A stretch of DNA of 64,000 nucleotides from Alphaproteobacteria bacterium (GTDB lineage: Bacteria; Pseudomonadota; Alphaproteobacteria; TMED109), in the NCBI GenBank assembly GCA_022825235.1, contig JAJDYI010000046.1:1-64000 (forward strand). Direction: 5' to 3'. Below, piece after piece: positions 15,177-64,000 of the stretch; position 1 is the stretch's first letter; each line of letters opens with the position of its first letter. A program made the translations under genes and the position numbers. The notes under the pieces were generated by a model, which saw nothing but the letters and a program-made list of their open reading frames with translations, did not search any database and was not told the DNA's origin.

Positions 15177-17588
15177 CTACCAGCGGAAGCCGGTCTCGAG
15201 CCCGATCCGGTGCTCCGGCGCCTGGTCACCCGCGGCCTCGCGGCGGGCCGCCTCGACGCCGAGCGTGAACGATTGCCACCGCCCGGACGCGAGCCGCCAG
15301 CCGAGGCGGACGTCCCGCGCCTCGCCGAACCCAAGCCCCACGTACGGGGTGCCCGTCAGGCCGCCCGTGAGCGACAGGCCGTACCCGAACTCCGCATCGA
15401 GGCGCGCGCCCGGCAGCTCGCCGCCGTCGCCGATCAGCGCGGCCGGCCGCGCGTCCCACACCCGGCCGCCCTGCACGCCGGCGCCCCACGACGGCGTCAT
15501 GGCGAGCGACAGGCCGCGGCCCGACGGATCGGGCGCGATCCGGAGCGAACCGCTCGCACCCCATTCGCCGTAGCGGTCGTCCTCGTGCGCGGCGAGCCCG
15601 TAGACGCGGAACTCCGACGTCAGGCCGCGCGACGGGTCGGACCACGCCAGGCCGGCGCCGACCTCGAGACCTGAGCCGGTCTCCGCATCGCCGCCGTCGT
15701 GGCGGAAGCCCAGCGTGAGCGACGGCTCGACCGAGCCCCCGCCCGCGAGGGCGAAGATGCGCGATCCCTCCAGCACGGCGCGCACGCGGCTGGCCTCCCC
15801 AGTGGCGGCCGCGAGGTTGCCGACGCCGGGCGCGGACACGCCCGCCTGCTCGGTGCGCACGAAGAACGCGTCCGTCTTCAGCGCGAGCGCGAAGCCGCTG
15901 CCGGCCCCGGGCCGGAGCAGTTCCGCGCGGCCGCCGGCCGCCACCAGCTGCAGGGCGATGTCCGCGCGCTGCGAGGCGCCGTCGCGCGCGAGCGACAGCT
16001 CGCCCTGGCCCGATCCGACCATGCTCCAGAACGACAGCCGCTCGCCCGCCCGGAGGCGCGCGTAGGGCGTGACCATCGAGAGCGCGCCCTCGATGGCGTA
16101 CCCGGCGCCCTGCGGCGCGAAGCCGGCGCTGCCGGTCTCGATGCTCTCCGACAGCACCAGGCCCAGCAGCAGGTTGTCCCGCTCCCAGTCCATGCCGAGC
16201 ACCCCGGTCATGGTCTCGCTCGTGAACGACAGCCCGCCGGGCGCGGCGCCGGAGGAACTCCCCGCGAGCGCCCGGCCCCAGCCGGTCATGGCACCCAGGC
16301 CGGAGACGTCGCCCGCCGTGAAGCGGAACGAGGAGCCCAGCAGCAGCTCGCGTAGATCCATGCTGCGCGCCTCGCCGGTCGCGTCTCCGTCCCGCCAGCG
16401 TTCATGCTGCTGCGGCAGCGGCGCGCCCGCGAGGTCGAGACGCTGGCCCGCGATCGTCAGGTGCGAGGCCGTGCCCGGACCTGCGGCCAAGCGGCCTTCC
16501 ACCGCCTCGAGCATTTGGCCCGCGACCGTGCGCCCGAACCGCGCGAGCCACTCCGTCTGGAGCGGGTCGGTGTTTACGATGGTGCCCGTCGCCTCGCCGT
16601 CGGCGATGCGCGCGCCAGCGGCGTTCGAGAGCGTGAGCGTGAGCGTCTCCGCGCCCTCGTCGTGGGCGTCGTCGAGCACCGGCACCGAGACCGTCTTCGC
16701 CGTCTCGCCCGCCGCGAAGGTGAGCGTTCCCGATGTCGCCGTGTAGTCCGCGCCCGCCGTCGCCGTGCCGTCCGACGTGGCGTAGGCCACTGTCACGCTG
16801 TTCGTCGCCGCGCTGGCGAGCGTCACCGAGAAAGCGAGGGCGGCGCCGTTCGCTTCCGTCACGCGGACGTCGGCTACCGACAGCCCCGCAAGGGTGGCGA
16901 GACGCGACTTCAGCCAGCGCAGGCCGCCGTTATTCACCTTCGGCTGCGACGGCCCCCAGCCGGGCGCCGTCGGATCCCCGAAGAAGAAGCGCGGCATGAT
17001 CGAGTTGCTGACCCTAGCCAACAGAGACACCTCGGCGCGGCTTGCGTGGCGCGTCACATAGCTGACGCCCGCAGTGGCGAGCGCCTGCACGGCCTGCCCG
17101 TACCGACGCACAGCGGCGGCATCGGACGGGTCGTGGTAGATCACGAACCGGGGCGCGGCCGGCGTCTCGGATTCGCCGCTGGCCCCGCCGGTGGCAGTCG
17201 CCGTGGTCCCGCTCGCCGTGCCCTCCGCCAGCAGGGAGTTGTCCGCGTCCAGCGCAGCCACGTTCACCGTGTAGCTCGTGCCGGCGGACAGATCCGTGAT
17301 CGTGTGGCTGTTGGCGCTCGCCTGCACCGCGCCGCCGTAGTCGCCCGCGCCGGTCTTCCAGCGCACGTCGTAGCGCGCCGCGTCCTGCACCTCGTCCCAG
17401 TTTACGGCCAGTTGGGTGGGCTTGTCCGAGACGGAAGCTACGGTGAGCCCGGTCAGCGTCGCCGTTCCCTCGCCGTCCGGAAGCTGCTGATTGCCGGATT
17501 CCCCGCGCGCCAGCGAACCGGTGGTGGCCGTGCCCTCAGCCTCGCCGGCAGCAATCGTGCGGTCGGGTTGACTGGGAGTCGGGAGGGG
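15177..17588 (-). CDS. Autotransporter adhesin, C-terminal half (after in-frame stop)
   Basis: This frame is directly continuous with the upstream half (17589-19643), separated only by a TGA at 17591-17589. It reads an FN3 domain (AARYDVRWKTGAGDYGGAV), a module with VIYHDP and PRFFFGDPTAPGWGP ending in VNNGGLRWLK, a Calx-beta domain (GADYTATSGTLTFAAGETAK), then a beta-barrel autotransporter domain over the last 300 residues ending in GLETGFRW. It has no signal peptide of its own, so it cannot work alone as an autotransporter. The FN3 and following residues are nearly identical to the gene at 61059, pointing to duplication. It is followed by a perfect hairpin. Confidence 0.85.
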   Translation of the reverse strand, partial: PLPTPSQPDRTIAAGEAEGTATTGSLARGESGNQQLPDGEGTATLTGLTVASVSDKPTQLAVNWDEVQDAARYDVRWKTGAGDYGGAVQASANSHTITDLSAGTSYTVNVAALDADNSLLAEGTASGTTATATGGASGESETPAAPRFVIYHDPSDAAAVRRYGQAVQALATAGVSYVTRHASRAEVSLLARVSNSIMPRFFFGDPTAPGWGPSQPKVNNGGLRWLKSRLATLAGLSVADVRVTEANGAALAFSVTLASAATNSVTVAYATSDGTATAGADYTATSGTLTFAAGETAKTVSVPVLDDAHDEGAETLTLTLSNAAGARIADGEATGTIVNTDPLQTEWLARFGRTVAGQMLEAVEGRLAAGPGTASHLTIAGQRLDLAGAPLPQQHERWRDGDATGEARSMDLRELLLGSSFRFTAGDVSGLGAMTGWGRALAGSSSGAAPGGLSFTSETMTGVLGMDWERDNLLLGLVLSESIETGSAGFAPQGAGYAIEGALSMVTPYARLRAGERLSFWSMVGSGQGELSLARDGASQRADIALQLVAAGGRAELLRPGAGSGFALALKTDAFFVRTEQAGVSAPGVGNLAAATGEASRVRAVLEGSRIFALAGGGSVEPSLTLGFRHDGGDAETGSGLEVGAGLAWSDPSRGLTSEFRVYGLAAHEDDRYGEWGASGSLRIAPDPSGRGLSLAMTPSWGAGVQGGRVWDARPAALIGDGGELPGARLDAEFGYGLSLTGGLTGTPYVGLGFGEARDVRLGWRLASGRWQSFTLGVEAARREAAGDQAPEHRIGLETGFRW

Positions 17589-37523: not shown

Positions 37524-38483
37524 ATGCAGCCACCAGGTAAGGCACACCGCGACGGCATTAGCATCATGCAGCTTACCGCCATGTTCCCTACGGAAGAAGC
37601 GGCGGAAACATGGTTTGAGGAGGTGCGGTGGGGTGCTACAAGTCGCCACTGCGCCAAATGCGGTTCCACCAATACCTACGAGGTAAAGCGCCGCAAACCG
37701 CAGCCCTACCGTTGCCGTAGCTGCAAGAGCTATTTCAGCGTGCGCACGGGCAGTGCGCTGGCCGAGACTAATTTGCCACTACGCACCTGGCTACATGCCA
37801 TCTACCTTTACATCACCAGCCTTAAATCTGTTAGCAGCATGAAACTGCACCGGGACCTGGGTATTACGCAGAAGACGGCGTGGTTTCTGTTGCACCGTTT
37901 GCGCACCGCATGGGACGGGGATCCGGCGGACTTGTTTACTGGACCTGTTGAAGTTGACGAAACGTATATGGGTGGGAAGGCCCGCAACAAGTCCAACCAC
38001 CAGCGCCGACAGGCAAAGGCAACGGGTAATGAGGTGGCACCCAAGACAGCCGTTGTGGGTGCAAAGGACCGCTGCATACGCAAGGTGGCCGCCCGGGTGG
38101 TGGCCGCGCCCAATATGGCCGAGTTGCTGGGTTTAGTGACGAAAACGGTTGGTGCAGACGCAGTAGTGTATACGGATGAGGCCAAGGCCTACCAGGGCCT
38201 GCCGCGCAGCCACGGCACGGTAAAGCATGGTGCAGGGGAATACGTGCGCGGCGATGTGCACACCAACGGTGTCGAGTCGTTTTGGAGCATGCTAAAGCGT
38301 GCCCACATGGGCACCTTCCACCACTTGTCCCCCAAGCACCTGCACCGTTACGTGGCGGAGTTCGCGGGACGGCACAACGTGCGCAACCAGGACACCATCA
38401 AGCAGATGCAGGCAGTGGTTGCTGGTACGCTGGGTAAACGGCTCATGTATGCGGAACTAGTGGCAAAGCGCCTCAAGCTATGA
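37524..38483 (+). CDS. IS1595-family transposase
   Basis: The 319-residue protein has an N-terminal zinc ribbon with C43/C46 and C64/C67 (CAKC, CRSC), a helical DNA-binding part, and an ISXO2-like DDE domain: D in VEVDETYMGGK (about 144), D in VVYTDEAKAYQGL and the last acidic/Asn motif in HTNGVESFWSMLKRAH. All expected catalytic blocks are present, so the element may still be active. It lies within the inverted repeats at 37456 and 39490. Its 3' end overlaps the convergent passenger gene by six bases. Confidence 0.95.
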   Translation: MQPPGKAHRDGISIMQLTAMFPTEEAAETWFEEVRWGATSRHCAKCGSTNTYEVKRRKPQPYRCRSCKSYFSVRTGSALAETNLPLRTWLHAIYLYITSLKSVSSMKLHRDLGITQKTAWFLLHRLRTAWDGDPADLFTGPVEVDETYMGGKARNKSNHQRRQAKATGNEVAPKTAVVGAKDRCIRKVAARVVAAPNMAELLGLVTKTVGADAVVYTDEAKAYQGLPRSHGTVKHGAGEYVRGDVHTNGVESFWSMLKRAHMGTFHHLSPKHLHRYVAEFAGRHNVRNQDTIKQMQAVVAGTLGKRLMYAELVAKRLKL

Positions 38484-39741: not shown

Positions 39742-42279
39742 TCACCAGTGCAATGCGCCGCGCAGCATCAGACCGTGCTCGGGCCGGTCGTCGTTGGCGG
39801 CCTCGTGCAAGTTGCCTTCAACGCTCACGCTCGCAGCCGGTACAAGCTGCCAGCGTGCGCCCATGCGCCACGACCGCGCGCCTTCGCCCGCGAGCCCGAG
39901 CCCCGCATAGGGCGTTACCACGCCCAGGCCGGGCGCCGTGCCGAGACCGTAGCCGACCTCCGCGTTCAGGCGCATCCGGTTGTCCGGCAACGCGCCGGCA
40001 GTGACGCCGCTCTCCCACAACCGCTGCACGCCGCTAGCCGTCGGGCCCCACGCCGGCTCCACCGCGAGCGCAAGCCCTCGTCCCGATGCGTCCGGAGCGA
40101 TCCGCAGCAGGCCGCTCACGCCCGTCTCCTCGTAGTCGCCGCTGTGGCTGAGCAGGGTCCGGACCCGGCCCACGACGGTCAGCCCGGACTCCGCGTCCTC
40201 ATAGCGCAAGGCACCCCCGGCCTCGATACTGCTGCCGGTCTCGCCGTCTCCGCCGTCGTTTCGCAATCCGAACTCAAGCGAGGGCGCGAACGTCGCGCCC
40301 GAGGCGAGCTTCTGGACGTGCTCCCCTTCCAATATCAGCCGCTGCCGGCTGGCACTCAGCGACATGTTCTCGATGGTCGCGGAGCCTTCGACGTCGGCCC
40401 AGGTGAAGGCCACCTCGCCCTTGAGGCTCAGGTTCGTGGTGCCGCCCCCGATCATCTCGTCGCTGGACAGCAGCGGCCCGCTCACGCCCGCCGCCACCAT
40501 CCGCTGCGTCAGGTCGCTCGCCTGCGTGCCCGCCGAGTCATCGTCGAGCTCCACCTCGCCCGAGCCCATGCCGCCCATGGCCCGCAGGTTCATGCCGCCC
40601 GGCATCTGCCAACCCACGTAGGGGTTGATGCTCGTCAGGCTCGTCGTGAGTTCGCCCGATGCGTCGGAGGCCGAGTAGTCCACCGTCCCTTGCGCATGTG
40701 ACACCGCGACACCCGCGAGCATGTCCGCGCCCAGCTTTGTATCGATCCCGAGACTGGCGCCCGTCACGTCGCCGTCATAGACCACCGACTGCGCGTTGCC
40801 GCCGGAGAAGCTTCGCCAGTCCCCGCTGCCCCAGAACGTCAGGTCTCCGAAGGGGCCCCCGCCTCCGTCGCCGGCCGCGTTGAGTGCCAACGTGAAGGAC
40901 GAACCCGCCAGCAGCCGGCCGAGGTCGGCCGTGCCGTTCCCCAGCGAACGTCCGTGCGCGAGCAGGGCATCGGGGAGGGTGAAGGCGCCGCCGACGCTGA
41001 ATCCCGTGGCGGGCGGGGCGCCCGAGGTCGCCCGCTCGATGCGGCCCGAGACGGCGTCGACCGTGCTCGCCGTCATGGCCCGCATGACCTGGGGCAGCAC
41101 CGACTTGACCACCGAGCTCCGGCTGGCAGCGATCACCTCGGGCGACCTCAGATAGTATCCCGATCCGACGATCAGGTTGAGCGGGATGACGCGGCCGAGG
41201 GAGTGGATTTCACCGGTGAACTCGCGGGCGTAGCCCACCTTGGGAATGTCGGCGCTGTCGCTGTCGTCAGCGGGATCGTCCCAGAAGTACTCCACGAAGC
41301 CGCCTTCCGGGCTGCTTTTCGCCGCTTCGATGACCTGCGGGAGAACGAGCCTCCCGGTCACGGCGTCACGGACGGTGGGCACCAGCGGTCTGAGCTCGAA
41401 CCGGTCCGGAAATGCGGCGTGAAACAGGATCGCGTTGCTGTTCAGATCCAGGATGTAGAGGCACACGGAACCGTGCCGCCAGGGCCCATGCGGGTTCCGC
41501 AGGGCGACCCTGACCTTCGAGTAATCCGCCGGATCACTGCTCGTCTGGTGCTCGAGAAAGAACTCCCCCGCCTGGGTGACGAAGGCTTTCAGGGTTGCAC
41601 GGTCCACCACGTCCATGGCCGTGACGGACGGGTCGCCGTGATCGATGGCTTCCTCAGCTACGTGCGATGCGTCGAGATCAAAGCCGGCCAGCAGCACGAT
41701 TGGGAGCCCGGTATGGGGCGCCGTATAGGTGGCGGCATAACCGGAAGCACCCGGCACATCGGGCGCGTTGAACGCGCCACCATTCCCGGCCGCCGCGTCA
41801 GCGAAAGCGGCCAAGGCAGTGGCAGGGCTCGCCAGATCGGCCGGGTTGATCCCCAGAGCTCGAAGGATCGATTGATAAATCAGAGGGTTGAGTGGCCTCC
41901 CCGACAATGCCATGGTCTTCGCGTGAATGAATATCCGGTCGGGCGCCAGTTGCACGAGGTAGGTGGAACCGGAACGGTAGGGACTTCCTTCCTGCCGGAG
42001 GAGACAGCCCATGTACACCGCCTCTTCCGTGGTGTTGTTGACTCTCTGGCTCAACTGATCCCGGACCGCAAGTACGAACGCCATCAGGCTGGCGCTCCCG
42101 TCCTCCACCTGCTGGGCCGTCACGGCCGGAGCCGGCGGAGGAGTCACGCCGGCGGAAAGTGGGCAGCCCCCCTGCATCTGCGCCGAGGCGTGGCGGGCAC
42201 CGGAAACAACGCCGGAGAGCACGAGCAGTGCGGTACAGAGAAGCATCGATGCCGTGGAGACAAACCTTCCCGTCTTCAT
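39742..42279 (-). CDS. Autotransporter with Cache-type sensor-like passenger
   Basis: The 845-residue protein has a signal peptide (residues 1-34, cut near HASAQ). The passenger (about 50-390) looks like two Cache-like modules: the first ends in GYAATYTAP and PIVLLAGFDL (about 180-202), the second in GGFVEYFWDDP, KVGYAREFTG and LNLIVGSGYYL (327-377), the usual final strands of small-molecule-binding Cache domains. Residues about 550-845 are an autotransporter beta-barrel ending RGALHW. Cache domains normally occur on receptors in the inner membrane, so display through an autotransporter barrel is unusual. ATG 42279 is chosen because the signal peptide starts there. Confidence 0.85.
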   Translation of the reverse strand: MKTGRFVSTASMLLCTALLVLSGVVSGARHASAQMQGGCPLSAGVTPPPAPAVTAQQVEDGSASLMAFVLAVRDQLSQRVNNTTEEAVYMGCLLRQEGSPYRSGSTYLVQLAPDRIFIHAKTMALSGRPLNPLIYQSILRALGINPADLASPATALAAFADAAAGNGGAFNAPDVPGASGYAATYTAPHTGLPIVLLAGFDLDASHVAEEAIDHGDPSVTAMDVVDRATLKAFVTQAGEFFLEHQTSSDPADYSKVRVALRNPHGPWRHGSVCLYILDLNSNAILFHAAFPDRFELRPLVPTVRDAVTGRLVLPQVIEAAKSSPEGGFVEYFWDDPADDSDSADIPKVGYAREFTGEIHSLGRVIPLNLIVGSGYYLRSPEVIAASRSSVVKSVLPQVMRAMTASTVDAVSGRIERATSGAPPATGFSVGGAFTLPDALLAHGRSLGNGTADLGRLLAGSSFTLALNAAGDGGGGPFGDLTFWGSGDWRSFSGGNAQSVVYDGDVTGASLGIDTKLGADMLAGVAVSHAQGTVDYSASDASGELTTSLTSINPYVGWQMPGGMNLRAMGGMGSGEVELDDDSAGTQASDLTQRMVAAGVSGPLLSSDEMIGGGTTNLSLKGEVAFTWADVEGSATIENMSLSASRQRLILEGEHVQKLASGATFAPSLEFGLRNDGGDGETGSSIEAGGALRYEDAESGLTVVGRVRTLLSHSGDYEETGVSGLLRIAPDASGRGLALAVEPAWGPTASGVQRLWESGVTAGALPDNRMRLNAEVGYGLGTAPGLGVVTPYAGLGLAGEGARSWRMGARWQLVPAASVSVEGNLHEAANDDRPEHGLMLRGALHW

Positions 42280-42868: not shown

Positions 42869-43225
42869 TCACCCCAACAGCCGCAGGACTGTCTCCCTGT
42901 CGACCAGGTCGACGTCCTCTGCGCGTTCGAGCAATGGCCGCACGTCGCCCGCGACGAGATTCCAGTCCAGCCGCACCAGCCGCTCGGCAACCGCGCTGCG
43001 CCAGCTCACGGGCGTCATCTCCGTACCCGACCAGCCGGTCTGGCGCAGCGCCGCGTTCAGGAATGCGAGGTTTGGCGCCGGCCAGTCGGGGTCGCTGAGG
43101 TACCACACGAGGTCGTAGATGTCCCGACCCTTCGTGTACGGCCGTTGAAGCACCGCATGCAGCTTGCCGGCCAGCAGCGATGCACGGTCATGGTGGAAAA
43201 GCCGCAACGTCTCGTGCCGGCGCAC
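42869..43225 (-). pseudogene. AbiEii-type nucleotidyltransferase remnant (C-terminal part)
   Basis: The frame reads [20 protein letters not shown] followed by PYTKGRDIYDLVWYLSDPDW and LNAALRQTGW, the conserved C-terminal half of AbiEii/AbiGii toxin-family nucleotidyltransferases. The N-terminal catalytic part is missing because sequence upstream belongs to dinB. It continues on the same strand from the broken dinB and ends at 42869. Confidence 0.75.
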
Positions 43226-43829
43226 GAGCGTCGTGTCCGTTCACGGCGAAGCCGCGCGGCTTGTCCAGATCCGAGGCGATCTTGGCCAGGAACTTGTTGG
43301 TGCTGAGCCCGATCGAGAGCGTGATGGCAAGCTCGGTTTCCACCCGGCGCGCCAGCGCCGCCAGCGTGGCGGCGGGGCTGGCGCAGTGGAGGGATTCCGT
43401 GCCCGAGAGGTCCATGAAGGCCTCGTCGATCGAGAGCGGTTCCACCAGCGGCGTGAGTTCCAGCATCATCGCCCGAACCTCGCGGCCGACGGCGGTGTAC
43501 TTCTTCATGTCGGGCCTGACGACAACGGCCTCGGGACAGGCCTCCAGAGCCTTGAACATCGGCATGGCCGAGTGCACGCCGCTGGCGCGCGCCAGGTAGC
43601 AGCAGGCCGCGACCACCCCCCGGTGGTGCCCGCCCACGATGACGGGCCGATCGCGCAGCTCCGGGCGGTCGCGCTTCTCGACGGCGGCGTAGAACGCGTC
43701 GCAGTCGAGATGGGCGATGGCGAGACCGTGGAGTTCCCGGTGTCGGACGACCCGTGACGAGCCGCAGGCCGGACAGGCCTTGAGGACGGCGTCCGGCCGG
43801 CTGCCGCAGTCACGACACAGGGCTTCCAC
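43226..43829 (-). pseudogene. dinB: Truncated DNA polymerase IV (dinB), N-terminal part
   Basis: The product starts with a zinc ribbon (CRDCGS and CPACGS), the extension typical of alphaproteobacterial DinB, followed by the Y-family palm: [50 protein letters not shown] and [14 protein letters not shown] with the catalytic DE. It is intact to SNKF-like [20 protein letters not shown], then the sequence breaks at about 43240. The thumb and little-finger domains are absent, and an AbiEii fragment begins instead. It cannot be a full polymerase; normal length is about 350-420 residues. Confidence 0.88.
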
Positions 43830-44318: not shown

Positions 44319-45596
44319 ATGACAACCTACGAACGGGCCCAGATTTCCACGCTATTCAACCGGCTGCGCGAGAAGCCTCAGCGGCTCGCGATCGTGACCG
44401 GTCCGCGTCAAACGGGCAAGACCACACTGGTTCACCAGGTCCTCGGAAAGCTGGACTGTCCTTCTCGGTACGTGTCTGTCGATGAACCGGACCCTGCCAT
44501 CCTCCCTTCAGTTCCAGACTTGGGTAGTTCTCAGCCTGGATTCGCGGAGCATCAATTGTCCCCGCGCGACGGCTCAAGAGACGCGCGATGGCTGGTCATG
44601 CAGTGGGAACAGGCTCGGTTGGCCGCCGAAAGCTCCGACCGGGGTCTCGTCCTGGCGATCGACGAAATTCAGAAAATCCCGAACTGGTCGGAGGCGGTCA
44701 AGGGGCTGTGGGACGCCGACCGGCGAAGTGATCGGCGCCTGCACGTCATCCTGCTTGGCTCGGCCCCATTGCTCATGCAGCAGGGACTGAGCGAGAGCCT
44801 TGCCGGCAGGTACGAGACCGTCCGCCTGATGCACTGGTCGTTCGCCGAGATGTCGGCAGCGTTCGGTTTCGATCTCCAGCGCTACGTCTATTTCGGGGGT
44901 TATCCGGGCGGCGCCCCGCTCGTTCCCGAGCAGAGTCGATGGCGTGCCTATATCGCCGAGGCGTTGGTCGAGCCCAATATCGAGCGGGACATTCTCGCGA
45001 TGCAGCGGGTCGACAAACCAGCGCTGCTGAAGCGGCTGTTTCAGCTCGGCGCTGAGTATTCCGGGCAGATCCTCTCCTACAACAAGATGCTCGGCCAGCT
45101 TCAGGACGCCGGCAACACGACGACCCTGGCGCGGTACATCGACCTCCTGTCGAACGCAGGTCTCGTCACCGGCCTCCCCAAGTACGCCGCAGGAGCCCAT
45201 CGCCGGCGATCCTCCAGCCCCAAGCTCAACGTTCTCAACACCGCACTCATGGCCGTTGCGTCGGGATACACCTTTGAGGAGGCAAAGGCCGACCGCAGCT
45301 ATTGGGGGCGCCTTGTCGAAAGTGCGGTGGGCGCGCACTTGTTCAACACGGGCACGCCGGAACACCGTCTGCACTACTGGCGCGAGAACGGCTCCGAAGT
45401 GGATTTCGTCCTGACACGCGGTCGCAGACTGGTTGCCTTCGAGGTGAAGACCGGCGCGCGCAAGCCCAGGACAAGCGGGCTCGAACGATTTGCGGAGCGC
45501 TTCGATGTGCAGGCGTCCGTCATCGTCGGCGAGGGAGGCCTCCCCCTCTCCGAATTTCTGTCGACACCGGCGCTGGAGTGGTTCGACAACCCGTGA
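44319..45596 (+). CDS. AAA-family ATPase with DUF4143 C-terminal domain
   Basis: The 425-residue protein has Walker A TGPRQTGKTT (27-36), Walker B LVLAIDEIQKI (110-120) and the sensor-like VILLGSAPLLMQQ, typical of AAA_14/DUF4143 proteins. The C-terminal domain contains EVDFVLTRG and VAFEVKTG, giving a D...ExK arrangement like a restriction-endonuclease fold, usual for this family. Its stop overlaps the GTG of the next gene by four bases, so the two are coupled. The family is widespread, often beside mobile or defence genes, with unclear function; a joint role with the next protein is inferred. Confidence 0.93.
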   Translation: MTTYERAQISTLFNRLREKPQRLAIVTGPRQTGKTTLVHQVLGKLDCPSRYVSVDEPDPAILPSVPDLGSSQPGFAEHQLSPRDGSRDARWLVMQWEQARLAAESSDRGLVLAIDEIQKIPNWSEAVKGLWDADRRSDRRLHVILLGSAPLLMQQGLSESLAGRYETVRLMHWSFAEMSAAFGFDLQRYVYFGGYPGGAPLVPEQSRWRAYIAEALVEPNIERDILAMQRVDKPALLKRLFQLGAEYSGQILSYNKMLGQLQDAGNTTTLARYIDLLSNAGLVTGLPKYAAGAHRRRSSSPKLNVLNTALMAVASGYTFEEAKADRSYWGRLVESAVGAHLFNTGTPEHRLHYWRENGSEVDFVLTRGRRLVAFEVKTGARKPRTSGLERFAERFDVQASVIVGEGGLPLSEFLSTPALEWFDNP

Positions 45597-48500
45597 CGCC
45601 CACCGTTCGACGGACATGCCGCGACATCGGCGAGCCCGCCTCCCGTGGCCCTTCGGAATCTCCGTCCCGACCTGTCGAGCATTGGAACGACGAGGCAGCC
45701 TACGTGCTGCTTGGTCCTCCAGGCTCCGGCAAGACCACCATTTTCAAGCATCTGGCGGAACGCGAGGGCGGACAGTACGTCACCGCGCGCGATTTCCTGA
45801 CCTTCGACGACAGACCCGAGCGGCACGATACGGCTCTCTTTATCGATGGGCTCGACGAGACACGGGCCGGAGCAACCGACGGGCGCACACCGTTGGACAG
45901 TATCCGTGCCAGGCTCGACCGAATGGGCCGTCCGCGCTTTCGCCTGTCGTGTCGTGAGGCCGATTGGTTCGGAGCGAATGACAGGGATCATCTCAAACAG
46001 GTATCGCCCAGCAGAGCCGTCAAGGTACTCCGCCTCGATCCCTTGTTCGAACAAGATATCCACCAATTTCTGCGCGGTGTTCTGAGGATCGATGATCCGG
46101 AGGCTTTTGTCGCAGCGGCCCGAGAGAAGGGCATTCACGGATTACTGGTCAATCCACAGAGCCTGAACATGCTCGCGGTTGCGGTCGGAGCCGCCGGTGT
46201 CTGGCCCGAGACCAGAACGCAGGCATTCGACATGGCATGCCGGACCCTGCTTGCAGAGCACAACGAAGAACATCGTATAGCCGGTCCGGATCCGGGCGGA
46301 AGCGCCGATCTCATCGAGGCCAGCGGAAGGCTCTGCGCAGTGCAGCTTCTGACCGGTGCCGCGGGGTACGCACTGCCGGGCGCGGAGGGCGATCAGCATT
46401 TCCTCGGACTGGAGCGACTACCGGGAACGGAGCGCGAGATTCTTCGCCGCAGCCTTCAATCCAAGCTGTTCGAATCTCCCGCAGAGCGCCGGATGGCTCC
46501 CGTTCACCGGCAGGTCGCGGAGTTTCTCGCCGCGAGATATCTGGCCGCTCTTGTCGAGAACGGGCTGCCGGTCGGGCGCATCCTCGCACTGATCACCGGC
46601 TACGACGGCATGGTGGTCTCCGAACTGCGCGGCCTTTCCGCATGGCTCGCCGCACACAGCAAATCCAGCCGAGCGGAGGTGATCCCGCGCGATCCTCTTG
46701 GCATCGTTCTTTACGGAGACGCCCAACACTTCTCGCCGGAAGAAAAACGCCTGCTTCTGGATGGCCTCCAACGGCAAACTGCAGCGAATCCCCGCTTGAT
46801 CACCACCGTCCAGCTGGATTCGCGGCTCGGCGATCTCGTGTCCGTCGACATGGAGAACCAGGTCCGCGAGATCCTGGCCGCCCCGGCGCGGGAGGACTCC
46901 TGGCAATCCTTCGTCGTGATCGTGCTCGAGGCCCTTCAGCACAGCGAACCGCTTCCAAGGCTTGCCGATCCGTTGAAAGAGCTGATCCGCGATGGTGCGC
47001 GGTGGCCGAGGATTCGGGATCGCGCCATCGATGTGTTCCTGTGGCACCATCCGAATGACACCGAGGCCCTCGCCGAACTCAAAGAGCTGACTGCTGAGGT
47101 CTATGCCGGCAGGGTGGCTGATTCCGACGACGCCCTGCTCGGCCGCCTGCTGTCCACGATTTACCCTGCAGCGATATCGGAAACGGAGGTCATACGATAT
47201 CTCAGGCTCCCGCAACGACCCAACTACAGCCCCGAATACGAGTATTTCTGGACCGGACAGCTTCCCAAGCGATCGACACCAAGCCAGCTTGCCGTGCTCC
47301 TCGACCTGATCGTCGAACGCTACGACAACTTGCTTGCGGATGAACGGGCGCGCGGACTTCCGGCTTTCTTCTTGCGTCGCCTGCCCTCGAATCTGTTGGC
47401 CCGGTTTCTTCTGGTGTCGGGCGACGAGGTGGACGTGACCCGCTTGTTCCATTGGCTGGAGCCAGCCGCCAGGGCAGGCGACTGGACCTACGACCGTGAT
47501 CTCGGCAGCGAGGAATCACAAGAGATTCGCAGGTGGCTTGCAAGCCGCCCCGCCGCGTGGAAGACCCTGCTGGCGATGGGGATGGAGCGTTGCGCCGAGC
47601 GGCCCAATTCCCCGGAACCCTACGAGTTCTACAGCTGCATGCGCGAAGAAGAGCATGGCAGGCTGTTGGGTGTCGCTCGGCCCCGGGATTTCGGACTGTG
47701 GTGCCTCGACCGGGCGGTCGCCGCCAAGAGCCGGATCACCGCCGACTGGCTCATCGGCGAAGTTGCGGAAAGCCTGCACTACGGCCGTTCCGATGAGGGC
47801 CTTTCCCGCGAGGCTGTCTCGAGACACCTGGTCGGCTTCACCCGTCTCAGTGATGCGTTTGACAGGAGAATGGTCGAGCTTGAGGCCCGAACGTCCGACA
47901 GGGACAGCTCCAGTCCCCGCGCGCAGGCTCGGTTGCAGACCGAGCGACCGGACTGGCGCGACCATGTAAAGCCGCACGAGGACGAACTGCGCGGAAATAC
48001 GGGAAGGCCCCAGCTTCTGCACGAGCTCGCCACGGTGTATTTCGGCGGATACATCAACGTTCGCGGCAAATCACCGAGAGACAGGCTGAACGCTCTCCTG
48101 GCCGGCGACGAAGGCCTAGTCGACGCCGTTCTGTCCGGATTTCGCAAGACCATCGACCGGGATGATCTGCCTTCGGACACGAGGGTCATACGCCTCGGAA
48201 CCGCGAATCGGACGCACTATCTCGCCCTGCCTTTCATGGCGGGCCTGGAGGAAATGGCGAAAGCTGCGCCATCCGGCGAGATCGACATAGATCACGGACG
48301 CTTGCGGCTTGCACTGGCGGTTCATTACACCGTGCCGATGTGGCCCACTGCGCGGCATCCGGCCGACCGTCCGCCGCCCTGGTTTGCCTGGACGCTAGCC
48401 AACCGCCCCGAGGTCGCCGCCGATGTGCTCGTAAGGTCCGTTCTCTCGAAACTGCGCAAGGGCGCGCAATCTCCTGCGGGCATCCAGGAATTGGCGCATT

Positions 48501-49732
48501 CTCCGGACCATACCGAAGTTGCCCGCCTGGCCACGATGCCTTTGCTCAGGCAATTCCCCGTGCGTTGTGCATCCGGGCAGTTGTCGAGCCTGAACCACCT
48601 GCTGTTGGCCGCCAGGCGCCACTGCGACATTGGCCCGCTTCTGGAGTTGATCGAGGAGAGGCACGCCGATCATCGAATGAGCGTGGCACAGCGCGTCCAC
48701 TGGCTGGTCGCCGGCTTGTGCATCGCGCCAGAGTCGTACGTCGATCGGCTGGAATCGTATGCCGCTGGCAATGAACGCCGCATTCGTTTCCTGGCGGAAG
48801 CGGTGACCCGACAATTCGGCATTTCCCCCGATCTGAAGTACCGCCGGAGCGCGCCTGCGCTTCGGCTTCTGATCCGACTCATCGGCGCCTCATGCCGGCC
48901 CTATTTTCTTGACACGGACTCGGATGAAGGCGGCAAGGTGACCCCGGAAATGAACGCTGCCGGTTGGGTTCGAGACTGCATCGAACAACTGGCGAGCATT
49001 ACGACGGAAGGCGCTTCGCTCGCCCTTGAGGCGTTGTCGTCCGACAACGACTTGCGTCCCTGGCGTTCCCTTCTCATGGACGCCGCGTACCGGCAGGAAG
49101 CGGCCCGTCGCGAAGCCGAATTCGCCTATGGTGACGTCGCTCGGGTTCTTGCAACCCTCGCTGGCGGCGCTCCTTCGAACGTGGCCGACCTCGCGGCGTT
49201 GACCCTGGAAAACCTGAACGAGATTGCGCGTGCCATTCGCGACGGCAATACGTCCGACTGGAAGCAATACTGGAATGTGGATCATCGCGGCCGCCCACAG
49301 AGGCCCCGCCCGGAAGACACGTGCCGAGACGCGCTGCTGTCGGATCTGCGGAACAGGCTGATGCGCCTCGGTATCGACGTTCAGCCGGAAGGGCGTTACG
49401 CCAACGACAAGCGGGCGGACATTCGTGTTTCCTGTGAGGGTTTCAATGTTCCCGTGGAGATCAAGAGAAGCTGCCACCGCGATCTCTGGAGTGCAGTACG
49501 ATCGCAGTTGATTGCCCGCTACATCGTCGATCCGGGAACCGACGGGCATGGCATCTATCTTGTGTTGTGGTTCGGAGACACGAAAGAATGCCGACCCACG
49601 CCACCGGCGAAGGGATCACCGGTCGCTACTTCCCGTGAACTGGAACATCGCTTGTCGTCGACCTTGTCTGCCGAGGAGAGAAGAAAAATCAAGATTCGAG
49701 TCATCGACGTCTCCGATCCGAATGCAACTTGA
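45593..49732 (+). CDS. Large NACHT/STAND-like P-loop ATPase with C-terminal PD-(D/E)XK nuclease motif
   Basis: The 1379-residue protein begins at GTG 45593 (overlapping GTGA). Walker A is LLGPPGSGKTT (39-49), Walker B ALFIDGLDE (81-89) and the sensor segment RFRLSCREADW (115-125), as in NACHT-like ATPases. The long middle (about 250-1200) is helical and repeat-like, without membrane segments, as expected for a sensor arm. The C-terminus has KRADIRVSC (D1276) and VPVEIKRS (E1289, K1291), a PD-(D/E)XK signature, followed by QLIARYI and GIYLVLWFG. A phage-sensing nuclease is inferred. Unlike many such proteins, the nuclease is at the C-terminus. An alternative upstream start would lie inside the ATPase gene. 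Confidence 0.9.
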   Translation: MTPTVRRTCRDIGEPASRGPSESPSRPVEHWNDEAAYVLLGPPGSGKTTIFKHLAEREGGQYVTARDFLTFDDRPERHDTALFIDGLDETRAGATDGRTPLDSIRARLDRMGRPRFRLSCREADWFGANDRDHLKQVSPSRAVKVLRLDPLFEQDIHQFLRGVLRIDDPEAFVAAAREKGIHGLLVNPQSLNMLAVAVGAAGVWPETRTQAFDMACRTLLAEHNEEHRIAGPDPGGSADLIEASGRLCAVQLLTGAAGYALPGAEGDQHFLGLERLPGTEREILRRSLQSKLFESPAERRMAPVHRQVAEFLAARYLAALVENGLPVGRILALITGYDGMVVSELRGLSAWLAAHSKSSRAEVIPRDPLGIVLYGDAQHFSPEEKRLLLDGLQRQTAANPRLITTVQLDSRLGDLVSVDMENQVREILAAPAREDSWQSFVVIVLEALQHSEPLPRLADPLKELIRDGARWPRIRDRAIDVFLWHHPNDTEALAELKELTAEVYAGRVADSDDALLGRLLSTIYPAAISETEVIRYLRLPQRPNYSPEYEYFWTGQLPKRSTPSQLAVLLDLIVERYDNLLADERARGLPAFFLRRLPSNLLARFLLVSGDEVDVTRLFHWLEPAARAGDWTYDRDLGSEESQEIRRWLASRPAAWKTLLAMGMERCAERPNSPEPYEFYSCMREEEHGRLLGVARPRDFGLWCLDRAVAAKSRITADWLIGEVAESLHYGRSDEGLSREAVSRHLVGFTRLSDAFDRRMVELEARTSDRDSSSPRAQARLQTERPDWRDHVKPHEDELRGNTGRPQLLHELATVYFGGYINVRGKSPRDRLNALLAGDEGLVDAVLSGFRKTIDRDDLPSDTRVIRLGTANRTHYLALPFMAGLEEMAKAAPSGEIDIDHGRLRLALAVHYTVPMWPTARHPADRPPPWFAWTLANRPEVAADVLVRSVLSKLRKGAQSPAGIQELAHSPDHTEVARLATMPLLRQFPVRCASGQLSSLNHLLLAARRHCDIGPLLELIEERHADHRMSVAQRVHWLVAGLCIAPESYVDRLESYAAGNERRIRFLAEAVTRQFGISPDLKYRRSAPALRLLIRLIGASCRPYFLDTDSDEGGKVTPEMNAAGWVRDCIEQLASITTEGASLALEALSSDNDLRPWRSLLMDAAYRQEAARREAEFAYGDVARVLATLAGGAPSNVADLAALTLENLNEIARAIRDGNTSDWKQYWNVDHRGRPQRPRPEDTCRDALLSDLRNRLMRLGIDVQPEGRYANDKRADIRVSCEGFNVPVEIKRSCHRDLWSAVRSQLIARYIVDPGTDGHGIYLVLWFGDTKECRPTPPAKGSPVATSRELEHRLSSTLSAEERRKIKIRVIDVSDPNAT

Positions 49733-61058: not shown

Positions 61059-64000
61059 CTACCAGCGGAAGCCGGTCTCGAGCCCGACCCGGTGCTCCGG
61101 CGCGTGGTCGTCCACGGCCTTGCGGCGGGCCGCCTCGACGCCGAGCGAGAAGGACGGCCACCCCGCCGAGCTCAGCCGCCACCCCATGCGGTACTCGCGC
61201 ACCGTGTCCGACAGGCCGAACCCGACATTGGGCGTGCCCGTGAAGCCGCCGCCGAACATCGCGATGCCGTAGCCGAGCTCTGCATCGAGCCGGCTCGACA
61301 ACGGCGCGTCGTCATCCGCCGCGAGCCCGGACGCGTCCGACAGCATCCACAGCCGGTCCCGGCTGCCCGGGTCCGCGCCGTAGGACGGCGTGAGCGACGC
61401 AGACAACCCGCGGCCCGTCCCGCCCGGCACCAGCCGGATCGAGCCCGACACGCCCCACTCCGAGTAGCCGTCCGCGGCGTGCGCCGCAAGGCCGTGCACC
61501 CGGAGCGCCATGTCGAGGCCGCGCGACGGATCGGCGTAGCCGATACCGGCGCCGAGCTCCACGCCCGTCCCGGTCTCCGCGTCGCCCCCGTCGTGGCGCA
61601 GCCCGAGCGTCGCCGACGGCGTCAGCGTCCCGCCGTCCGCCAGCGCGAAGCGCCGCGAGCCGTCCAGCACCGCCCGGACGCGGCTCGCCTCGGCCTGCGC
61701 GCCGGCGAGGTTGCCCACGCCGGGCGCCGACACCGAGTCCGACTCCGTCCGCACCCAGAACGCGTCCGCCTTGAGCGCCAGCGCGAACCCGTCCGCCTCG
61801 TCAGGCGTCACCAGCTCGCCCCGCACGCCCATCGCGGCCAGGGTCATCGACAGGTCCGTGCCGTAACGCTCCGCCGCGCCGCCGTCGAGCTCCAGCGAGA
61901 GGCTTCCGCTGCCGGTCCCCGCCAGACCCCAGGCCGACAGGCGTTCGGAAAGCGTGAGCCGCGCGTAAGGCAGCATCGTCGTCACCGAGCTCCCCATCGC
62001 GTAGACCCGCCCCGCGCCCTGCGCGGTGCCCTCGCCGGCGCTGTGCGTCATCGCGAACCCGGTCAGCAGGCGGCCGCGCTCGTAGTCCATGCCCATCGCA
62101 CCGGTCGCCGCCTCGCCGCTCAAGGACAGACCCGTACCGGAACTGGAGAACTGCGACACCGACGCGCCCTGGCCCCAACTCGTGAACTGCGAGCCCGCGC
62201 CCTGCCCGAGCACCGCGCGGAACGACGTGCCCATCAGCAGCTCGCGCGTGGTCATCGTCCGCGAGCGGTTCCCGGCCGGGTCGCCGGACCAGGTGAGCCA
62301 CGATGCTGTGCCGGCTCCGAACGCCGGCGCCGGCGGCAGGCCGGGTTCACCCCCGGAGCCGTCGAGCGCGATGCGGTGCCCGCCCAACGTGAAGTGCGAG
62401 CCCGCATCCCGCGGCACCTCCAGCCGCGCCGTCACCGCCGCGATCGCATCCGAGGCCACCGCGCGGCCGAACCGCGCCAGCCAGTCCTTCTGCAGCGGAT
62501 CGGCGTTGGAGATCGTGCCCGTCGCCGTCCCGTCCGCGAGCGTCGCCGTGGCCCCCGGACGCGGATTGCTCAGCACCAGCGAGAACGTCTCCGCGCCCTC
62601 GTCATGCACGTCGTCCAGGAGCGTGACGGTCACCGACTTGCGCGTCTCGCCCGCCGCGAAGGAGAGCGTGCCGCTCGCCGCCGTGTAGTCCGTGCCCGAG
62701 GTCGCCGTGCCGTCCCGCGTCGCCCAGTCCACCGACACCGCTTCGCGCGCCGCTGCCGAGAGCGTCACCGCGAACGCGATCGAGCCGGACGACTCGCGCG
62801 CCGAGGCGTCCGCCACCGACACCGACACCGTCCCGGCGGACGCCGACGACGCCTGGGTCTGACCGAGCGCCGAGCGCAGCCACTTGAGGCCGCCGTTGTT
62901 GACCTTCGCCCGCGCCGGACCCCAGCCCTCCGCCTCCGGGTCGCCGAGGAAGAAGCGCGGCAGCACCGAGCCCGACACCCCGGCGAGGCCGTCCACCTTG
63001 GCCGTCCCCGACACGGTGCGCACCGCCCAGGACCGGCCTGCCGCCTTGAGCAGCCCGACCGCCGTCTGGTAGCGGGCCACCGCAGCGGCGCCGGCGTTGG
63101 GGTCGTGGTAGACGGTGAACGCGGCCGGCGCCGCAACGGGCTCGTCGTCATCGCGCACCGTCACCGATGCGTTCGACGGGTCGCCGACCTCGTAGCCGGT
63201 GCCGGCATCGAGCGTTACCGTCGCCTTGCCGTCCGGCTCGTCCCCGTCATCGTCCGCCGTCGCCACGCTGAGCGTGGCACTCGTCGCGCCCCCGGCGATG
63301 GAGAGCGTCTTCGCGCCCTCGTCGGAGGCCGCGACGAACGCGCCGTCCTCGGACACGGTGTAGGCGAGCGTCAGCCCGTCCGTCGGCGCCGCCTGCGAGA
63401 GCGTCACCGTGAACGACGCCGCCGTCCCCTCGTCCACCGCCGCGCCGGCCGCGACGGTCACCGTCGGCGCGGGCGGGGGCGACGATTCCTGCTGCTCCAG
63501 GAGCACCTTGCGCAGCCACTTCAGGCCCCCGTTGTTGACCCCCGGTTCCGAGGGACCCCAGCCCTCTTCCGCCGGGTCGCCGAGGAAGAAGCGCGGCATC
63601 ACCGAGTTCTCGACCCGGGCGAGGCGGTTCACCTCGCCGGCGCCGGTGACGGTGCGCACCGCGTAGGACCGGCTGGCCGCCTTGAGCAGCCCGACCGCCG
63701 TGTCGTAGCGGCTCCCCGCCGCCGCCGACGCGTGCGAGGGGCGCGGGTCGTGGTAGACCGTGAACTGCGCCGTGCCGATGGCACCCGTGGCAGCTGCTGT
63801 GGTCCCGCTCGCCGTGCCCTCCGCCAGCAGGGCGTTGTCCGCGTCCAGCGCGGCGACGTTCACCGTGTAGGCCGTGCCGGCGGCGAGGCCCGTGATCGTG
63901 TGGCTGTTGGTGCTCGCCTGCACCGCATCGCCATAGTCGCCGGCGCCGGTCTTCCAGCGCACGTCGTAGCGCGCCGCGTCCTGCACCGCCTCCCACGACA
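61059..64000 (-). CDS. Autotransporter adhesin with Calx-beta repeats, partial at right edge
   Basis: The frame stays open to the end of the window, so the N-terminus is missing. Order from the edge: FN3 (AARYDVRWKTGAGDYGDAV), a module with FTVYHDP and SVMPRFFLGDPAEEGWGP ending NNGGLKWLRK, a Calx-beta-like domain (VTVAAGAAVDEGTAASFTV), a second copy of the module (SVLPRFFLGDPEAEGWGP), a second Calx-beta (SGTDYTAASGTLSFAAGETR), then an autotransporter barrel of about 300 residues ending GLETGFRW. It is unbroken in the visible part, unlike the related gene at 15177-19643. A recombinase fragment lies beyond its 3' end, as at the other locus. Surface adhesion is inferred. Confidence 0.92.
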   Translation of the reverse strand, partial: SWEAVQDAARYDVRWKTGAGDYGDAVQASTNSHTITGLAAGTAYTVNVAALDADNALLAEGTASGTTAAATGAIGTAQFTVYHDPRPSHASAAAGSRYDTAVGLLKAASRSYAVRTVTGAGEVNRLARVENSVMPRFFLGDPAEEGWGPSEPGVNNGGLKWLRKVLLEQQESSPPPAPTVTVAAGAAVDEGTAASFTVTLSQAAPTDGLTLAYTVSEDGAFVAASDEGAKTLSIAGGATSATLSVATADDDGDEPDGKATVTLDAGTGYEVGDPSNASVTVRDDDEPVAAPAAFTVYHDPNAGAAAVARYQTAVGLLKAAGRSWAVRTVSGTAKVDGLAGVSGSVLPRFFLGDPEAEGWGPARAKVNNGGLKWLRSALGQTQASSASAGTVSVSVADASARESSGSIAFAVTLSAAAREAVSVDWATRDGTATSGTDYTAASGTLSFAAGETRKSVTVTLLDDVHDEGAETFSLVLSNPRPGATATLADGTATGTISNADPLQKDWLARFGRAVASDAIAAVTARLEVPRDAGSHFTLGGHRIALDGSGGEPGLPPAPAFGAGTASWLTWSGDPAGNRSRTMTTRELLMGTSFRAVLGQGAGSQFTSWGQGASVSQFSSSGTGLSLSGEAATGAMGMDYERGRLLTGFAMTHSAGEGTAQGAGRVYAMGSSVTTMLPYARLTLSERLSAWGLAGTGSGSLSLELDGGAAERYGTDLSMTLAAMGVRGELVTPDEADGFALALKADAFWVRTESDSVSAPGVGNLAGAQAEASRVRAVLDGSRRFALADGGTLTPSATLGLRHDGGDAETGTGVELGAGIGYADPSRGLDMALRVHGLAAHAADGYSEWGVSGSIRLVPGGTGRGLSASLTPSYGADPGSRDRLWMLSDASGLAADDDAPLSSRLDAELGYGIAMFGGGFTGTPNVGFGLSDTVREYRMGWRLSSAGWPSFSLGVEAARRKAVDDHAPEHRVGLETGFRW

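Follow-up and report, generated by a model that had tools for sequence, protein, structure and literature searches.

The gene at positions 39742-42279 on the reverse strand of the 64,000-nucleotide stretch of DNA analysed here (the window) encodes a protein that we judge, on balance, to be a type Va autotransporter with two sCache_2-type domains in tandem as its passenger, and to work by surface binding rather than by signalling. The features of the gene and its product are as follows.

39742-42279, reverse strand: Cache-autotransporter gene, an ATG-started open frame of 845 aa, with homologues of the same architecture
42178-42279, reverse strand: signal peptide, residues 1-34 (MKTGRFV...ARHASAQ), which reads as Sec type by sequence inspection
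41644-42132, reverse strand: Cache domain 1, residues 50-212, from the model and from structure and profile matches
41116-41634, reverse strand: Cache domain 2, residues 216-388, sCache_2-like by structure and profile matches
40840-41115, reverse strand: linker, residues 389-480, its first part a long helix (VVKSVLPQVMRAMTASTVDAVSGRI) that the prediction places at model residues 347-386
39745-40839, reverse strand: autotransporter beta-barrel, residues 481-845, with Trp as the last residue, from a PF03797 match

Inspection of the signal peptide revealed no lipobox. When the whole window protein was searched with Pfam, the Autotransporter family (PF03797) matched residues 482-598 with 38 bits against a cut-off of 26 (E=2e-9), and the C-terminal region searched alone gave E=4.9e-10, while an NCBIfam search of the protein gave no match. 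The linker helix was modelled with low confidence, the model having been made without the barrel, and it looks as expected for an autotransporter pore segment. The original prediction had placed a passenger with two Cache-type segments in front of an autotransporter barrel. The motifs on which it drew were located at residues 180-188 (GYAATYTAP), 193-202 (PIVLLAGFDL), 347-356 (KVGYAREFTG), and 369-377 (LIVGSGYYL), and the arrangement itself is borne out by the Pfam score above cut-off, by the fold match of the passenger, and by the homologues of the same architecture.

A structure model of the passenger, built from an alignment of 80 passengers, had a pLDDT of 86 and a pTM of 0.82. The whole passenger was compared with known structures by plain Foldseek and then by VIA-align, and domain 1 was also modelled alone. 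Plain Foldseek gave no PDB match for the whole passenger at E<=0.001, only weak PAS-type matches at E>=0.02. For domain 2 (model residues 190-349), the top structural matches were all single-Cache chemoreceptor domains, namely 2QHK (Z 13.6, 3.3 A over 135 residues), 4K08 (Z 13.3, 3.2 A over 134 residues), 4EXO (Z 13.0), and the PscD domain 5G4Y (Z 13.0, 2.9 A over 132 residues). Domain 1, with a pLDDT of 94 when modelled alone, gave a list headed by Cache structures, the best of which was again 4K08 at a modest Z of 8.7 (3.7 A over 114 residues). The Cache fold that had been proposed for the passenger is thus present in the predicted structure, with Z of 13-13.6 for domain 2. In the model, each domain carries leading helices of its own, which points to a tandem of two single-Cache units, and the passenger looks like two such complete units rather than one classical dCache.

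At the sequence level, the Cache signal of the window protein alone is weak, with a dCache_2 match at E=0.0011 that falls under the Pfam cut-off. The domain 2 stretch searched separately matched dCache_2 at E=4e-5, and among the relatives, 50 of 52 domain-2 rows matched dCache_2 and 44 of 52 matched sCache_2, two relatives (L044 and L103) exceeding the dCache_2 cut-off. A profile of domain 2 matched 4K08 at E=1.4e-4. The clearest case is a paralogue in the same genome (P0006, on contig C16), which contains two sCache_2 stretches (E=2e-17, 64 bits against a cut-off of 25) followed downstream by a barrel matching TIGR01414 above cut-off, and whose sequence matches the MCP sensor domain 4K08 in the PDB at E=3.5e-4. 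With this paralogue and relatives in other genomes, the search for homologues that share the predicted architecture was successful. Domain 1 of the window protein matched no Pfam domain, and among the 80 domain-1 rows, one matched sCache_2 and one dCache_2. Its homology follows from a profile-profile comparison with domain 2 (98.1%, E=6e-14) together with the P0006 paralogue, and by these comparisons domain 1 is a diverged duplicate of domain 2.

The carboxylate of PscD is contacted by Tyr90, His103, Tyr143, and Lys156 (PMC5062169). Mapping of these contacts through the 4K08 alignment placed them at residues 273, 287, 331, and 347 of the window protein, and their conservation was counted over 80 aligned domain-2 sequences.

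41461-41463, reverse strand: C273, equivalent to PscD Tyr90, a position held by Tyr in the other 79 rows
41419-41421, reverse strand: H287, equivalent to PscD His103, His in 78 of 80 rows
41287-41289, reverse strand: Y331, equivalent to PscD Tyr143, Tyr in 80 of 80 rows
41239-41241, reverse strand: K347, equivalent to PscD Lys156, Lys in 80 of 80 rows

The full Y-H-Y-K quartet is present in domain 2 of 77 of the 80 rows, and the window copy is one of the three exceptions, keeping three contacts and replacing Tyr with Cys at 273. This Cys could be a real divergence or a base error; as the replacement alters one of the four carboxylate contacts, the ligand of the window copy may differ. In domain 1 of the main family, our alignment shows Y107 kept in 79 of 80 rows and H119 in all 80, with the equivalents of Tyr143 and Lys156 missing, so that two of the four contacts are lost. 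On inspection, the C16 paralogue has all four contacts in both domains. Cys39 and Cys92 are nearly invariant across the family and may form a disulfide. Near pairs of heads gave dN/dS values of 0.05-0.45, indicating that the proteins are maintained by purifying selection.

Six Cache-autotransporter genes were found in the source genome, one in the window and five on contigs C56, C55, C80, C70, and C16, and every sCache_2 or dCache_2 match in that genome falls within these six. The C56 and C55 proteins are 70% and 62% identical to the window protein, and the C80 and C70 products are 69% and 63% identical to its head. The C80 and C70 genes are cut by contig ends inside the linker, and a reading of them as soluble forms lacking a barrel was dropped for that reason. 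Their two different heads run into identical final 141 bases at the contig ends (loci L016 and L017), which suggests near-identical barrels common to paralogues through gene conversion or cassette exchange; near-identical barrels would break an assembly, which fits the position of the contig ends. Barrels of the same type carry different passengers at other places in the genome, among them two Calx-beta and fibronectin III autotransporters in the window, at 15177-17390 and 61059-63998 on the reverse strand, with barrels 35-39% identical to that of the Cache protein. MCPsignal was absent from all seven genomes of the genus, the source genome included, in a search that was positive in seven of 14 control genomes. 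One source-genome protein has a weak dCache_1-like stretch and reads, by its sequence, as HAMP/phosphatase-type.

Directly upstream of the Cache gene (42869-43225, reverse strand) lies what seems to be the remnant of an AbiEii-type nucleotidyltransferase, 118 aa from its C-terminal part, followed by a 213-aa Y-family polymerase frame (43188-43829, reverse strand) with the IMS domain only, the remaining gene seemingly missing. A complete IS1595-type transposase (37524-38483, forward strand) is found close to the Cache gene on its 3′ side. Further along, an AAA_14/DUF4143 gene (44319-45596) adjoins a very large frame (45602-49732, forward strand) with 1376 aa in the window and only a sub-threshold AAA match.

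Relatives of the head were sought in 84,980 species genomes, a scan in which 289 pattern matches yielded 148 relatives, from which 78 distinct loci were kept. Among 71 C-terminal regions scanned, 38 matched Autotransporter, 21 matched FlgD_ig (19 of this set also matching Por_Secre_tail), and three matched further Cache domains. None of the 71 carried a signalling domain of the MCP, HAMP, kinase, or cyclase families. The window protein, with a barrel as its C-terminus, likewise does not have the layout of a chemoreceptor or sensor kinase. The claim that the displayed Cache domains have no route to a cytoplasmic domain is supported by the 71 C-termini as well as by the lack of MCPsignal in the genus. 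The FlgD_ig tails occur in Latescibacterota and Gemmatimonadota, and proteins with two or three heads before a barrel-like end were found in the same two phyla (L061, L068, L048); in the Gemmatimonadota loci L061:5830-10194 and L068:5584-11340, two and three tandem double-Cache heads, respectively, precede a single barrel. Extra sCache_2 domains follow the head in Bryobacterales/Terriglobia (Acidobacteriota loci L065, L071, and L072), where they replace the barrel, with a BA14K-like match in L065. Three Binatota loci (L076, L085, L100) end in an unrecognised C-terminal region of ~145 aa closing on ...NFVITDVE/Q, which may be another type of anchor. Neighbouring gene arrays of the family were present at L032, L036, and L047. 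In one Rhodospirillales bin, two members (L043 and L064) have barrels that are 90% identical and heads that are 61% identical, and the window barrel is closest to that of L064 (78%) while the window head is nearer to others. By these identities, head and barrel have separate histories.

All 78 loci lie on contigs of metagenome-assembled genomes (MAGs), and their names point to sponge or coral hosts. Ca. Synechococcus spongiarum is a named sponge symbiont, and Plut presumably stands for the coral Porites lutea. The jk18x bins come from Caribbean Ircinia (PMC9531527), and the prefixes RHO, COS, IRC, and CO fit, as names, the sponge species of PMC8163846. For the p16x and SB06xx bins, no published host source was found, and the SB bins were instead compared by DNA, many SB06xx loci being 87-95% identical to other bins over kilobases. 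The family occurs in Alpha- and Gammaproteobacteria, Deltaproteobacteria/Myxococcota, Gemmatimonadota, Latescibacterota, Acidobacteriota, Binatota, and Cyanobacteria, with single loci each in Nitrospira and Aminicenantes, for a total of at least eight phyla, a count that MAG misbinning may inflate. L046, from a Bryobacterales bin, and L086, from a Nitrospira bin, sit on short contigs or at the ends of contigs; both are possibly misbinned and were given no weight.

Within the window's order, the family was found in all seven genomes of the genus and in none of 21 others. Among 385 genomes of the class, only one outside the genus gave clear matches over most of the head, and three further weak matches resemble the Cache domains of ordinary chemoreceptors or sensor kinases. 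On the tree of heads, the phylum labels need 20 changes where the minimum possible is 7, and several of these are forced by strongly supported branches. Transfer of the head between phyla is therefore likely but not proven, because paralogy and misbinning can both contribute. A search of plasmid records gave no match. That sponge and coral bacteria of so many phyla have this head in common, on different anchors, suggests that it serves life within the host.

Given autotransporter biology, the barrel would insert in the outer membrane and leave the head outside the cell, where it would bind a carboxylate-bearing ligand and act through binding alone. Most probably it would adhere to acidic components of the host matrix or capture material from them. 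Surface binding is preferred over signalling because the head has no link to the cytoplasm, occurs in multi-head proteins and in sets of paralogues, and is shared among host-associated phyla; multiple heads, paralogues, and anchor swaps would likewise be more in keeping with avid attachment to a surface or matrix than with catalysis. Candidate acidic ligands in sponges include the pyruvated trisaccharides of the Microciona aggregation factor (PMC6027152) and the glucuronic acid of the sponge matrix (PMC6306507). In the known sCache_2 domains, the pocket encloses a free C2/C3 acid, and there may be no room in it for the end of a glycan. A broader form of the same proposal, that the tandem head is a laterally shared symbiosis module derived from a chemosensor and serves generally, as receptor or adhesin at the cell surface, for acidic glycans of the host matrix such as pyruvated or uronic ones, on phylum-specific anchors, is offered tentatively, as a possibility that we hold to be less probable than its opposite.

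The original prediction had named ligand scavenging, decoy, and adhesion as functions of such a protein, and among these multivalent binding at the surface to an acidic ligand of the host appears to fit best, the conserved carboxylate pocket also favouring it. Solute scavenging, with the surface Cache pair capturing small carboxylates such as acetate, pyruvate, lactate, and glycolate, or else other metabolites, so that their local concentration rises for uptake, would agree with the carboxylate quartet kept in domain 2 of the family and with the acetate, pyruvate, or propionate bound by the domains closest to it. We nevertheless consider it unlikely, as no dedicated transporter was seen beside the gene, surface copies would hold ligand only stoichiometrically while small acids pass through porins, and multi-head arrays and swapped anchors are given no special explanation. 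It is also improbable that the head is a decoy, mimic, or mask, sequestering a signal of the host or a competitor, imitating a host Cache protein of the alpha2delta type, or shielding the cell from phagocytosis or phage. Laterally shared host-interaction proteins are indeed numerous in sponge symbionts (PMC8163846), and the head is common to several phyla with several diverged copies per genome, but its nearest folds are bacterial sCache_2 sensor domains rather than animal Cache proteins, and purifying selection is unlike an arms race.

That the protein is still a receptor, with the barrel and a periplasmic partner relaying outside binding inward, is suggested by the usual role of Cache domains as sensors (PMC4822843). 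This is very doubtful for a barrel that has no periplasmic signalling extension, whose scanned neighbours include no sigma/anti-sigma or two-component genes, and whose head is also found on tails of FlgD_ig type in which no membrane part was recognised. Finally, the sub-cut-off Pfam scores of the window protein alone and the lack of a PDB match at E<=0.001 by plain Foldseek are what would be seen if the passenger were an ordinary one with a Cache likeness due to chance strands, a reading that the sequence and fold evidence from the relatives contradicts and that we find barely credible.

If surface binding by a tandem Cache head is correct, it bears on how these domains are annotated. Any annotated Cache domain is taken to be part of a receptor, and here a Cache family is uncoupled from signalling and would be shown on the cell exterior by a genus that lacks chemoreceptors. 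Cache matches in host-associated genomes should consequently not be counted as chemotaxis receptors. The same head on different anchors in many sponge and coral phyla is a testable candidate for a factor in the persistence of unrelated bacteria in the sponge matrix and, if the symbiosis-module proposal is true, would be a widely shared means by which sponge and coral microbiomes associate with their hosts.

Compared with known systems, the passenger is closest to the sCache_2 (PF17200) chemoreceptor domains of PscD (PscD-SD, 5G4Y), Adeh_3718 (4K08), and the V. parahaemolyticus MCP (2QHK/4EXO), with which it shares fold and profile and, in the family at large, the Tyr-His-Tyr-Lys carboxylate contacts, the first Tyr being Cys in the window copy. 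Those domains are the periplasmic halves of transmembrane MCPs, whereas here a tandem pair sits on a barrel of the outer membrane and lacks any cytoplasmic part. The dCache_2 family (PF08269), whose profile matches domain 2, likewise places two Cache modules in one extracytoplasmic segment, but as a single double-Cache unit with a shared long N-terminal helix, while the modules described here are homologous end to end and have, in the model, their own leading helices. With classical type Va autotransporters (PF03797), the protein shares the signal peptide, as read from its sequence, and the N-terminal passenger, helical linker, and aromatic-ended barrel. Passengers of this type are usually beta-helices, and some are enzymes. 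No earlier description of a Cache passenger on an autotransporter was found in the literature, and a full-text search combining Cache domain and autotransporter returned one paper, which by its abstract concerns biofilm regulation in a sulfate reducer; what is new is thus a previously undescribed type of passenger, as far as this search reached, on a known export system, in a family common to host-associated bacteria. Among the extracellular sensors of prokaryotes, Cache domains have been described as the largest superfamily (PMC4822843), and Cache Pfams were reported in 2021 to be enriched in sponge-associated Thaumarchaeota and proposed for host recognition (PMC7848895). Those proteins are archaeal and are likened to ours by description only, the relevant passage of that paper giving no architecture or anchoring. 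A published survey of genes laterally transferred among sponge MAGs (PMC8163846), whose text does not mention Cache, lists cadherins, fibronectin III, and eukaryotic-like repeats among its attachment genes; these too are common to sponge-symbiont phyla and likely surface-related, the difference being that the module described here is a ligand-binding sensor fold.
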